Assembly (NCBI GenBank): GCA_002280725.1
Contig: NCEM01000010.1
Location: 1-64,000 of the forward strand
DNA: 64,000 nucleotides
Direction of reading: 5' to 3'
Source: Alphaproteobacteria bacterium 32-64-14
GTDB taxonomy: Bacteria > Pseudomonadota > Alphaproteobacteria > Caulobacterales > Hyphomonadaceae
Below are positions 35,501 to 39,541 of the stretch, piece after piece. The position numbers were made by a program, and so were the translations under genes. Below the pieces are notes generated by a model. The model was given only the letters and a program-made list of their open reading frames with translations, ran no database searches and was not told the DNA's origin. Every line of letters starts with the position of its first letter. The stretch's first letter is position 1.

Positions 35501-36019
35501 CTAGCGGCTGCCATCCGGGGCGAAGCGTTCGTCGGTCCAGACCAGTTCGTTGAACGACATGGCCGCTCGCAGCTCGGCGACCAAGCGCCGGATGGCGTTC
35601 TCGCCGCATCCGACACGGTATTTCAGGGTCTTCTGGCGGCCCTCGGCGGTTCGCCACGTGATGTCGACCACGGGCGGACCCGGCTGGCAGGAGGGCAGGG
35701 AACTGGCCGTCTGGTCCGGCTTGAGGGTCCAGAACTGGACCTCCTCAAGGGCCGTCTCGGCGCGGGCCCAGGCGGTTTGATCGAGAACGCCCTCCTGGAC
35801 GCCGATCGTCCGCACGAAGCGCTCGCCGTGCATCATGTAGGACCCATCGGGGTGAAGCGTGGTGGCGTAGACAGGGCAGGTGGTCTCGCAGGCGCCTTCG
35901 GCCAGCACGATGACCGCGTCGCCTTCCTGGGCCTTGATAACGCCCTGCTCCGCCGGCGAGCAGGCGCAGGCGAGCGCAGCGAGCGAGCCCGCAAGCAGGA
36001 TGCGGAGACGTCCGATCAT
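35501..36019 (-). CDS. DUF6438-like predicted lipoprotein
   Basis: A 172-residue lipoprotein; signal MIGRLRILLAGSLAALACAC, lipid cysteine near residue 20. The mature start GACETTCPVYATTLHPDGSY matches, from memory, the DUF6438 motif with its two cysteines, and SCQPGPPVVDITW/RVGCGENAI hold further cysteines. Function unknown. The next gene on this strand begins at 36855, past a hairpin. Confidence 0.75.
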   Translation of the reverse strand: MIGRLRILLAGSLAALACACSPAEQGVIKAQEGDAVIVLAEGACETTCPVYATTLHPDGSYMMHGERFVRTIGVQEGVLDQTAWARAETALEEVQFWTLKPDQTASSLPSCQPGPPVVDITWRTAEGRQKTLKYRVGCGENAIRRLVAELRAAMSFNELVWTDERFAPDGSR

Positions 36020-36090: not shown

Positions 36091-36855
36091 CTAGGGCTTC
36101 CGGAAGCGGAACAAGAACTGGTCGGTGTGGCGGCGCAGATCGGCGGCGAACGGCGATTTCGTGCGATCGTCCTCCGGGTTCGCGAGGATGTCGCTCTTTT
36201 CGACGTAGACGAGACCCGCCGCCTTGGCTGCCGCCAGCACATGGGCCGGATCGATCCGGTGGAGCGTCTGCGCGGACGTCGCGGCGGGTGTGCCGGCGAC
36301 TGCGGCGTGGTCCATGGCGATGAATTCGCCGCCGGGCTTCAGCACGCGGGCGATTTCGGCAAAGGCGGCTTCAGGATTGCCGAGGCCCTGCGTGTCCTTC
36401 GGCGTGAACCACACTTCGTGGGGGCCGAGGATCCACAACACCTTGTCGACGGAGCCGGTCGTAGCTTCGAGCTTGTCGAAATGGCTCTTGGTGATGACGG
36501 CGTTGGGCAGCTGGCCGCCATCCACGCGCGCCTTGTAGGCGGGATCGCCGTAAGCGAACTCGGGCGGATATTGCACGATCAGCTTGCCCTGCGGTCCGAT
36601 CGCTTTCGAGATCAGGAACGAGAACCAGCCCCGTCCGCCTTCCATCTCGACAACCGTGTCGCCCGGGCGAAGACCGGCGAAGGCCAGGACCTCGGCGGGC
36701 TTGCGGGCCGCGTCGTCCTTGAGATCGTCAACTGGCCGCGCAGGGTCGGCGAGGATGGCGGCATAGTCTGCAGCGGCGAGCGGCGCAGGACCAGACGCGC
36801 AGCCGAACGCCAACAGCATGGCGGCGCCTGCAGCGAGCAGGGTGATGGGTTTCAT
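36091..36855 (-). CDS. exported methyltransferase-like lipoprotein, copy 1
   Basis: A 254-residue protein with lipoprotein signal MKPITLLAAGAAMLLAFGC. The rest is a class I SAM methyltransferase fold: VVEMEGGRGWFS is the degenerate nucleotide loop, DKVLWILGPHEVW the second strand, and LKPGGEFIAMDHAAV motif near the fourth. The cofactor loop is altered (GGRG). Being lipid-anchored is strange because SAM is cytosolic. It is the closest relative of the gene upstream (36892). Confidence 0.85.
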   Translation of the reverse strand: MKPITLLAAGAAMLLAFGCASGPAPLAAADYAAILADPARPVDDLKDDAARKPAEVLAFAGLRPGDTVVEMEGGRGWFSFLISKAIGPQGKLIVQYPPEFAYGDPAYKARVDGGQLPNAVITKSHFDKLEATTGSVDKVLWILGPHEVWFTPKDTQGLGNPEAAFAEIARVLKPGGEFIAMDHAAVAGTPAATSAQTLHRIDPAHVLAAAKAAGLVYVEKSDILANPEDDRTKSPFAADLRRHTDQFLFRFRKP

Positions 36856-36891
36856 GTGTGTCTCCTCCGAGAACGCTTCGTCCGGTGTGTT

Positions 36892-37662
36892 TCAGAGCTT
36901 GCGGTAGCGCAGCAGGAACTGGTCCGTCTTGCCTTGCACGGCTGGGTCGAACACGCCTTTGGAATGATCGTCAGCCGGATTGGCGAGCAGCGCGCTTTCT
37001 TCCTCCAGCACGAAACCGGCGGCGGCGATCATCGGCTTCACGAGGGCCGGATCGATGCGGTGCAGGTCGTTGCCGGAGGTGGCGGGCGTGCCGGGCTTGG
37101 CGACGTGGTCCACGACGATCAGGTAACCACCCGTCTTGAGGACGCGCGCGATATCCTTGAAGGCGCCGGCAGGGTCGCCCATCGGTGCGTTGCCGCACGC
37201 GGCCTTGCACCACATTTCATGCGGGCCCTGGAACCATGTGACGACATCGACCGAGCTGTCGGCGGCATCGAGCTTGTCGAAGGTTGACCATGACACGCGC
37301 ACGTTGGCGAGGCGGTTGTCCTTCAGGCGGGCGTCGAGTGCGTCCTTGTAGAAGCGCTCGAACTCTTTCGGGCTCTGCATCGTGACCTTGCCCGATGATC
37401 CGACGGCGCGGGACAGAAGCTCGGTGTAGTAACCGGAGCCGGCTTCCATCTCGAACACGGTCTTGCCCGGCGCCACGCGCGAGAAGGCGAGCACGTCTGC
37501 GGGCTTGCGGGCGCCATCGCGCTCATAGTCGCCTGACATCCTGCCCGCAGCGGAAATCGTCGTGGAGAAGTCAGCGGCCGACGGCGCGGTCGCACAGCCG
37601 GCGGCGATCATCGCCAGAACTACCGCAAATGCTGCGGAAATGGCCGGGGTGCGAAGCTTCAT
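36892..37662 (-). CDS. exported methyltransferase-like lipoprotein, copy 2
   Basis: A 256-residue paralogue of the downstream gene with start ATG 37662 after GGGAGAGAC. Signal MKLRTPAISAAFAVVLAMIA then GCAT, the lipid cysteine at residue 22. Core features: TVFEMEAGSGYYTELLSRAV (motif I), VVTWFQGPHEMWCKA and LKTGGYLIVVDHVAKPGTP. It shares the spacing of the sister gene throughout, so this is a tandem duplication. The two read in one transcript with 36 bases between. Confidence 0.85.
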   Translation of the reverse strand: MKLRTPAISAAFAVVLAMIAAGCATAPSAADFSTTISAAGRMSGDYERDGARKPADVLAFSRVAPGKTVFEMEAGSGYYTELLSRAVGSSGKVTMQSPKEFERFYKDALDARLKDNRLANVRVSWSTFDKLDAADSSVDVVTWFQGPHEMWCKAACGNAPMGDPAGAFKDIARVLKTGGYLIVVDHVAKPGTPATSGNDLHRIDPALVKPMIAAAGFVLEEESALLANPADDHSKGVFDPAVQGKTDQFLLRYRKL

Positions 37663-37768: not shown

Positions 37769-37810
37769 TTGAAGATAGTTTAATGCTGAAGTATATAGTT
37801 CAACATTAAA
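37769..37810 (+). promoter_or_regulatory. promoter and overlapping dyad operator of the nitroreductase/MarR operon
   Basis: TTGAAG (37769-37774) and TATATA (37792-37797) are 17 bases apart, a near-ideal sigma-70 promoter. The arms tttaatgctgaa (37779-37790) and ttcaacattaaa (37799-37810) are inverted with one mismatch and flank the -10. A repressor bound there would block the promoter. MarR family proteins use such sites; the operon encodes one. A second inverted repeat, ttcatcg/cgatgaa, lies at 37744-37760 in the divergent gap. Confidence 0.72.
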
Positions 37811-37851
37811 CAACATCCGGCGTTAACCGGACCAGCAAGGGAAGAACGAAA

Positions 37852-37947
37852 ATGTGCATTCTGTATGGCCTCTCGACGGTCCTGGTTGTGGCCTGGCTGA
37901 CGACTGCCCTGGCCACTGTCTCGCAGCTTGGCGTCGGAGCAGCGTGA
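37852..37947 (+). CDS. 31-residue single-helix membrane peptide
   Basis: ATG 37852 with a good AGGGAAG ribosome site, 31 codons, one helix (MCILYGLSTVLVVAWLTTAL and on). Its TGA overlaps the nitroreductase ATG in the form TGATG, so the next gene's translation is coupled to it. It is 41 bases past the dyad operator. It may be a real small membrane protein or a leader peptide that controls the downstream start. No relatives recalled. Confidence 0.6.
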   Translation: MCILYGLSTVLVVAWLTTALATVSQLGVGAA

Positions 37948-39095
37948 TGGCCTCGCGCCGCGGAGTTCTGAAACTCATTGGCGGCGGGGTGGTGCTTGCC
38001 GCCGTCGCCGGCGGCGGCTGGTATGTCGCCAATGGCCCTTCCGGCGCTTCGCGCGCCGCATGGAAGGAAGCGGGAACCCCGAAAGAAAAGCGCAGGCGGT
38101 TCCTCTCTTATGCGCTGCTGGCCCCCAATCCCCACAATCGCCAGCCCTGGCTGGTCGATCTCGCGGGCGAGGATGAACTCGTTCTCTATTGCGATCTGGA
38201 TCGCAGGCTGCCTGAGACAGATCCTTTCGATCGACAGATCGTCATCGGCTGCGGCGCTTTTCTCGAACTGCTGTCCATCGCGGCGGCCAGCGAAGGATAC
38301 CGTGCGGACATCACGCCGTTTCCCAAGGGCGAGCCCGCGCCAACGCTGGATGCCCGGCCGATAGCCCATGTCCGGCTGGTGGCCGACAGCGCCTCCCGCG
38401 ACGCAGCCTTTGATTACATTCTCAAGCGCCAGACCAATCGCAACGACTATGAGGAGCGCGGAGTCGAGGCCGATATTCGCAGCAAGCTTGAACTGGCGGG
38501 CAGCCTTCCAGGCTTCAAGCTGGGCACAACCGGGGAGGGCGAGCTTGCAGCGAAGCTGCGAGACCTCACCTGGCGGGCGCATGAACGCGAGATGCTGACG
38601 CATCGCACGCTGAAGGAAAGTGTCGATCTCATGCGGATCGGAAACGCCGAAATCGAAAAATACCGCGACGGCATATCGCTCGACGGCCAGATGATCGCCT
38701 TTGCCAGCCTGACCGGGATGATCTCCCGCGAAAGCATGCTCGATCCCAAGTCCGATGCATTCAAGATGGGCATGGACCAGTATCGCAGGATGGCTGCATC
38801 CGCGCGGTCGTTCGCCTGGCTGACGGGACCGCCGGGGCGGCCGGCCGAGATTGCGGCGGGGCGAGCCTATGCGCGGTTTGCGCTGAAGGCGGCTGAACTG
38901 GATCTTGCCGTCCATCCCTGGAGCCAGAGCCTGCAGGAATTTGCCGAGATGCGCCCGCTATACGAAGAAGTGAATGCCCTGCTGGGCGGCGGTGAATCGG
39001 TGCATATGCTGGTTCGCATCGGATACGCCGCCCCGGATGTCACCGCGCCGCGCCGTGGACTTGCGGCGCTGATCAGGGAGACAGGGCAGGGATGA
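37947..39095 (+). CDS. nitroreductase-like protein with Tat-like signal
   Basis: A 382-residue protein. The start MASRRGVLKLIGGGVVLAAV is a Tat-like twin-arginine signal. The fold resembles Acg/nitroreductase-like proteins: LAPNPHNRQPWLVDL is the hallmark N-terminal segment, and the FMN-type region follows at about 290-330. Acg-like members often lack activity and bind FMN to deplete it. The gene is the second of an operon and overlaps both its neighbours by a few bases (TGATG and ATGA), so three products are made together. Confidence 0.85.
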   Translation: MASRRGVLKLIGGGVVLAAVAGGGWYVANGPSGASRAAWKEAGTPKEKRRRFLSYALLAPNPHNRQPWLVDLAGEDELVLYCDLDRRLPETDPFDRQIVIGCGAFLELLSIAAASEGYRADITPFPKGEPAPTLDARPIAHVRLVADSASRDAAFDYILKRQTNRNDYEERGVEADIRSKLELAGSLPGFKLGTTGEGELAAKLRDLTWRAHEREMLTHRTLKESVDLMRIGNAEIEKYRDGISLDGQMIAFASLTGMISRESMLDPKSDAFKMGMDQYRRMAASARSFAWLTGPPGRPAEIAAGRAYARFALKAAELDLAVHPWSQSLQEFAEMRPLYEEVNALLGGGESVHMLVRIGYAAPDVTAPRRGLAALIRETGQG

Positions 39096-39541
39096 ACCAG
39101 CGCGAAGACCCCGTGTCGTTCTATTTCAGGTTCTTCAATGAGATCGGGATCATCGCCCAATTGTCGGGCAACAAGCTCGAGCGCGTCCTGCCCGAAGGCA
39201 TGTCGCTCGCCCAGTTCACGGTGCTCAATCACTTCTGCCGGCTCGGCGGCGCCTGGTCACCGACCCGGCTGGCCGCAGCCTTTCAGGTGACGAAAGGCGC
39301 CATGACGAACACGCTGCAGAGGTTGGAAGCACAGGGTTTTGTCACGATCCGGCCCGACGATGACGACGCACGTGCGAAGCTGGTGGAGATAACCGGCGCC
39401 GGTCGCGCGGCCCGTGAGGCCGGTGTGCGCGCGACGAGTCCGATCGTGGCCGGGCTTGCGGACCTCGTTCCGTTGGCAGACGTAAAGGCGGCGTTGCCCT
39501 TGCTGGAGTTTGTCCGCAAGACTCTCGATGCAGGGCGCTAG
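39092..39541 (+). CDS. MarR family transcriptional regulator
   Basis: A 149-residue MarR protein: helices at the ends, recognition helix AAAFQVTKGAMTNTLQRLEA and wing IRPDDDDARAKLVEITGAG. The ATG overlaps the nitroreductase stop (ATGA). As third gene of the operon it is the likely repressor for the dyad at 37779-37810, forming a feedback loop. Ligand unknown. Confidence 0.92.
   Translation: MNQREDPVSFYFRFFNEIGIIAQLSGNKLERVLPEGMSLAQFTVLNHFCRLGGAWSPTRLAAAFQVTKGAMTNTLQRLEAQGFVTIRPDDDDARAKLVEITGAGRAAREAGVRATSPIVAGLADLVPLADVKAALPLLEFVRKTLDAGR

Follow-up and report, generated by a model that had tools for sequence, protein, structure and literature searches.

Two adjacent genes, here termed A and B, code for an exported pair of proteins with a methyltransferase fold in the window (the whole stretch of 64,000 nucleotides that was analysed), an observation that our analysis confirms. 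The prevailing view of class I methyltransferases is that of SAM enzymes of the cytosol. A and B resemble such enzymes but carry a predicted signal for export and membrane anchoring, as do nearly all relatives found, and a role distinct from ordinary methylation is hence probable; the likeliest reading is that of periplasmic enzymes whose pocket has been remodelled and may no longer depend on SAM. That both are working periplasmic enzymes and not ordinary SAM methyltransferases is the reading that we prefer, with a confidence that falls somewhat short of even. The features of the pair are the following.

36892..37662, minus strand: gene A, the upstream copy, coding for an exported class I methyltransferase-fold lipoprotein (predicted) of 256 aa (ORF, Pfam, model, 3dh0 match)
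36091..36855, minus strand: gene B, the downstream copy, coding for an exported class I methyltransferase-fold lipoprotein (predicted) of 254 aa (ORF, identity to A, model, 3dh0 match)
37594..37662, minus strand: predicted lipoprotein signal of A, residues 1-23, lipobox AAGC, Cys23 (sequence)
36799..36855, minus strand: predicted lipoprotein signal of B, residues 1-19, lipobox AFGC, Cys19 (sequence)
37426..37458, minus strand: motif I of A, VFEMEAGSGYY, residues 69-79, with the acid and GxG kept and the first Gly replaced by Glu (column counts, 113 members)
36622..36654, minus strand: motif I of B, VVEMEGGRGWF, residues 68-78 (column counts)
37369..37386, minus strand: end of strand 2 in A, VTMQSP, residues 93-98, with Ser97 at the expected place of the ribose acid (3dh0 alignment)
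36565..36582, minus strand: end of strand 2 in B, LIVQYP, residues 92-97, with Tyr96 at the equivalent of Ser97 of A (alignment columns)
37216..37227, minus strand: GPHE of A after strand 4, residues 146-149 (family columns)
37105..37110, minus strand: Asp185-His186 of A after strand 5 (both in 108 of 108 core members)
37051..37062, minus strand: HRID of A, residues 201-204 (H201 and R202 each in 108 of 108 core members)

The pair is confirmed at these exact coordinates, with A starting at an ATG at 37662 and being followed, after a gap of 36 bp, by B, and the two products share 47% identity over 243 aligned columns, which bears out the tandem paralogues described in an earlier note on this DNA. 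Given the 36 bp spacing, A and B may well constitute a two-gene operon. In both N-termini (...MIAAG-C23 in A and ...LLAFG-C19 in B), a short basic segment leads into a hydrophobic stretch and then into a lipobox ending in Cys, with Ala at position +2, and both proteins are thus predicted from their sequence to be bacterial lipoproteins that would face the periplasm. The earlier note had read lipoprotein signals on both, and the occurrence of export signals in nearly all of the distinct relatives, reported below, supports it.

Fold and family assignment

The class I methyltransferase fold, also proposed in that note, is upheld by the agreement of Pfam, structure prediction and the match to 3dh0. 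Pfam matches are weak but real, comprising Methyltransf_31 (2.9e-6), Ubie_methyltran (1.1e-5) and Methyltransf_11 (1.7e-5) for A and Methyltransf_11 (3.4e-4) for B, and the latter domain is matched by 19 of the 24 members of a family alignment. With the family alignment as input, AlphaFold2 produced confident models for both A (pLDDT 90.7, pTM 0.86) and B (pLDDT 91.3, pTM 0.88), and models and structure matches alike place the two proteins in the class I Rossmann-type fold.

The closest solved structure to both models is 3dh0, a SAM-dependent methyltransferase of Aquifex aeolicus solved by structural genomics (Z 20.6 for A and 20.0 for B, in each case over 176 residues at 2.8 Å), which also ranks first by profile (6.1e-14) and by Foldseek (1.0e-12). 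The His-Glu-Leu that follows strand 4 is common to 3dh0 and the family, but 3dh0 has the strand-2 Asp and shares only about 20% identity. The match begins near the 3dh0 N-terminus (residue 13-16), and there is hence no room for a leader in 3dh0. A likeness is also apparent to the UbiE/COQ5 quinone C-methyltransferases (PF01209), for which A scores above the Pfam cut-off (25.4 versus 20.1 bits) and B below it (16.2 bits), and the 29 bits of A against the curated NCBIfam family NF001240 lie far under its cut-off of 378. In the UbiE encoded by the same genome (L128), unlike in A and B, the strand-2 Asp is present and a signal is missing. A and B probably descend from cytosolic SAM methyltransferases of a UbiE/YcgJ-like type. 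Finally, a subfamily named 'methyltransferase' that carries a TFRNxHN motif, which we take to be the one labelled COG4798 and which is represented in this genome by L004 and L006, is likewise exported and conserves the equivalents of His148 and His186 together with an NPxD motif; it differs in having no His201-Arg202 pair and in presenting a C-terminal insert, and its alignment at the end of strand 2 is uncertain.

Export across the family

Export was assessed on 147 family ORFs from the first 115 loci, which yielded 113 distinct members once 34 repeats had been dropped. A fixed sequence rule assigned a lipobox to 96 of them, a type-I signal to 15 and no signal to two (L005 and L095), in both of which a signal is visible by eye. 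The same rule scored none of 22 controls, these being the other proteins of this genome that match Methyltransf_11 or Ubie_methyltran, and in the control run it missed one of five family loci (L152, the same gene as L005). A start-site artefact is ruled out by the presence of signals of two types in 111 of the 113 distinct relatives and in none of the controls, and it is extremely improbable that the signals are a product of annotation and the proteins ordinary cytosolic methyltransferases, even though a cytosolic branch of the family does exist. Export through the Tat pathway, which could carry SAM within the folded protein, was also discarded, since only 4 of the 113 signals show an RR pattern.

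The residue at position +2 of the 96 lipoboxes is Ala in 48 cases and Asp in only 3. In E. coli, lipoproteins are sorted according to this residue, and by that rule the rarity of Asp would indicate the outer membrane, where A and B, which have no Asp at +2, are probably located. Some members, chiefly gammaproteobacterial, carry a signal that is cleavable but provides no lipid anchor, and export is thus better conserved in the family than anchoring.

The cytosolic branch comprises five members (L184, L185, L224, L225 and L228) that have no signal and start just after the expected end of the leader; L224, L225 and L228 are plasmid-coded proteins of 210 aa from Nostoc and Rhizobium. The only member of this branch on the tree, L184, falls among relatives that are otherwise exported (support 83), a placement suggestive of signal loss. 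In two Rhizobium records (L225 and L228), genes for short-chain dehydrogenases or other oxidoreductases are found close by. Two other plasmid relatives, L223 and L226, have a signal at the N-terminus by eye, and the former (L223:3866-4651, from Rhizobium) combines it with an insertion inside the glycine loop.

The cofactor site and its pocket

The glycine loop had been described in the earlier note as degenerate in both proteins (MEGGRGWFS and MEAGSGYYT), a description that the family alignment does not sustain. Of the 113 distinct members, 108 have Glu and 5 have Asp as the motif I acid (column 71), G75 is kept in 110 and G77 in all 113, and Glu replaces the first Gly of GxGxG in 109, so that this Glu is itself conserved. 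Apart from that replacement, acid and glycine loop agree with the class I superfamily, and with GxG kept a degenerate loop was dismissed as the key feature. The broader perception that the cofactor site departs from the norm was nevertheless correct, the departure being found at the end of strand 2, a place that had gone unnoticed.

The profile alignment to 3dh0 places the Asp of its AIDV on residue 97. The acid in this place hydrogen-bonds to the ribose hydroxyls of SAM; it is common but conserved only in part (PMC1282579). In none of the 108 core members is residue 97 Asp or Glu: it is Asn in 76, Tyr in 11, Ser in 10, Ala in 6, His in 4 and Gly in 1, so that the motif II acid is absent from the core. 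The acid is also absent in 37 of the 38 middle-distance members; the sole exception, L187, is an exported protein that keeps the Asp and has a twin-arginine-like signal by eye. For the 32 members of the distant subfamily, alignment of the strand-2 column is unsafe, with 4 Asp among its commonest residues. Four members with scores in between, and one truncated ORF, belong to none of these three groups. In the motif III acid region of the core, column 129 is Asp in 105 members and column 127 is mixed, with Asn in 41, Asp in 15 and His in 14, and either column may be the one that faces the base. Strand-2 calls were made from alignment columns for the family and by eye for the controls; a regular expression proved too loose, matching residues that flank the site in the family. 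By eye, 18 of the 22 controls have the acid, two are unreadable and two (L125 and L129) do not have it. The latter pair, judging from their motifs, are presumably cyclopropane-synthase-like, and cyclopropane synthases are SAM users; hence, absence of the acid is no proof of SAM loss. The acid is likewise absent, and the pocket similarly altered, in the cytosolic branch, which resides in a compartment where SAM is available.

These data bear directly on the proposal that A and B might be true SAM-dependent methyltransferases acting outside the cytoplasm, on SAM that is leaked, exported or derived from lysed neighbours, and with the ribose contacted by Asn, Ser or Tyr and a neighbouring Gln. The intact loop and motif I acid agree with such a role, as do the cyclopropane-synthase-like controls, the cytosolic branch and the active-site residues shared with cytosolic YcgJ and 3dh0, and Asn, the commonest replacement, could still hydrogen-bond to the ribose. 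Extracytoplasmic use of SAM remains, however, a rather unlikely explanation in view of the loss of the acid across the whole core and of the Tyr at the ribose position of B; moreover, we know of no periplasmic SAM pool.

The pocket, taken as 24 columns at the ends of strands 1-5 that were picked from general knowledge of the fold, has a mean entropy of 0.70 bits in the core versus 1.59 bits for the 189 other columns, and none of 20,000 random column sets is as low. It is no more conserved than the remainder of the protein in the middle-distance group of 38 (5,536 of 20,000 random sets as low) and shows intermediate conservation in the 32 distant members (191 of 20,000). Six polar residues are invariant in the 108 core members (H148, D185, H186, H201, R202 and D231), residue 149 is Glu in 105 and Asp in 3, and His148 extends to all 38 middle-distance and 30 of the 32 distant members. 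The invariant His, Asp and Arg at the strand ends look catalytic. Since H148 and D185-H186 align with the His and Asp-His of cytosolic YcgJ, and His148 also with a 3dh0 residue, they may represent inherited methyl-transfer machinery. A and B have thus kept the fold, the glycine loop and conserved His and Asp residues where strands 4 and 5 end, the active-site region of class I enzymes, and have rebuilt the place that normally grips the SAM ribose. As working periplasmic enzymes, they would most likely act on small molecules of the periplasm, either with no methyl group being drawn from SAM or with some other ligand occupying the former SAM site.

Precedents for a methyltransferase fold without methyl transfer are SpnF, SpnL and LepI, and SpnF (Z 17.0) and SpnL (Z 18.0) present the same fold as A together with a different chemistry (PMC10491745). 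These precedents are, however, enzymes of biosynthesis, they retain the binding of SAM or SAH, and they are single cases and not an exported family.

Distribution, selection and gene neighbourhood

The family is represented by six copies in this genome and by 9 in G005, and a match at E 0.001 is found in 60 of 61 genomes (this genome and 60 relatives). A and B are adjacent in 13 of the 15 genomes of the window's genus, the exceptions being G008, in which the copies are separate, and G012 (77% complete), which has only distant members. A tree of 151 rows, built by a quick method, resolves A and B into distinct clades of 7 rows (support 97) and 8 rows (support 99), respectively, both within a 73-row core clade (support 99); an inner B clade (support 98) takes in G020, a genome of another genus. 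The separate, supported clades of A and B imply that the pair is old, and a recent tandem duplication is ruled out. In the window's genus, residue 97 is Ser or Ala in A in most genomes and Tyr in B; Asn occupies this position in most distant core members and in both copies of G002 and G014. Given their difference at the ribose position, the ligands of A and B may differ as well, and the suggestion in the earlier note of separate specificities fits two lineages that are both old and divergent at this residue.

Both genes are under purifying selection. Against three orthologues each (NG86), dN/dS is 0.116, 0.122 and 0.275 for A and 0.062, 0.073 and 0.098 for B. The loss of catalysis contemplated earlier is consequently not favoured, with dN/dS between 0.06 and 0.28 and a core pocket so much more conserved than the rest, which makes these look like working proteins and not relics. 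For the same reasons, and with the adjacent pair maintained in nearly all genomes of the genus, there is very little chance that A and B are decaying pseudoenzymes left over from gene duplication, in spite of the alteration of their cofactor site.

A scan of a named-genome collection confirmed 186 loci, of which 80 were kept; most are from Hyphomonadaceae, Parvularculaceae and related Alphaproteobacteria, and some, going by record titles, from Gammaproteobacteria. The neighbours in these 80 loci indicate no substrate or partner gene, and no neighbour family occurs in more than 25 of them. The shared neighbours, named by eye as FAD-linked oxidase-like, YciO/Sua5-like and YaaA-like genes and located mostly in Parvularculaceae (again by record title), look like a reflection of local gene order. 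This neighbourhood is relevant to a further possibility, namely that A and B are lipoproteins without catalytic activity, acting as receptors, chaperones or scavengers, whose old SAM cleft holds a nucleoside-like or other small molecule. The predicted lipid anchor of most members, the altered end of strand 2 and the several copies per genome would all suit such proteins, but no transporter or receptor partner recurs in the 80 loci and the invariant residues at the strand ends look catalytic, which makes a purely binding role quite unlikely. Returning to an enzymatic function in the periplasm, a plausible although tentative elaboration is that this widespread exported branch has abandoned SAM, keeping the fold and the active-site His and Asp for another reaction or cofactor in the periplasm, with the paralogues of one cell (six here, A and B among them) tuned by exchange of the residue that once held the ribose.

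Our search of the open-access literature, which covered titles and the beginnings of abstracts, with subscription papers mostly outside it, returned no exported methyltransferase-fold lipoprotein family of bacteria, and the database name of the family proteins is 'methyltransferase'. A conserved exported family whose nucleoside site has been rebuilt would imply either extracytoplasmic activity of SAM or the recruitment of the fold for some other chemistry in the envelope. In both cases annotations would have to be corrected in numerous genomes; the family profile has matches at E 1e-25 in 71 of the 398 genomes sampled from the phylum.

Several further elements were observed around these genes. 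A gene for a DUF6438-type lipoprotein lies near a family gene in 9 of the 80 loci, being the next gene downstream in 8, and the copy in the window is at 35501-36019 (PF20033, 3.3e-14). In five gammaproteobacterial loci (L087, L089, L099, L102 and L103) the family gene is preceded by an ABM monooxygenase-like gene and followed by a NIPSNAP gene, names that derive from Pfam matches of the L087 copies. Between gene A and a divergent nitroreductase-like gene, an inverted repeat at 37778-37811 (13-base arms with one mismatch, 8-base spacer) is a possible operator; the pattern drawn from it has one match in the window, with none expected in shuffles, and no copy of the palindrome precedes A in the 9 related loci inspected. 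Beyond it, a hydrophobic ORF of 31 codons (37852-37947, by eye) overlaps with its stop the ATG of the next gene (TGATG), and the nitroreductase-like protein starting at 37947 scores just below the Pfam cut-off (22.2 versus 23.5 bits). A MarR-type regulator is encoded at 39092-39541. The segment 39653-40720 codes for an exported-looking protein of 355 aa with no Pfam match at E 0.001, and a family related to it is found near family genes in 11 of the 80 loci, including three gammaproteobacterial ones.
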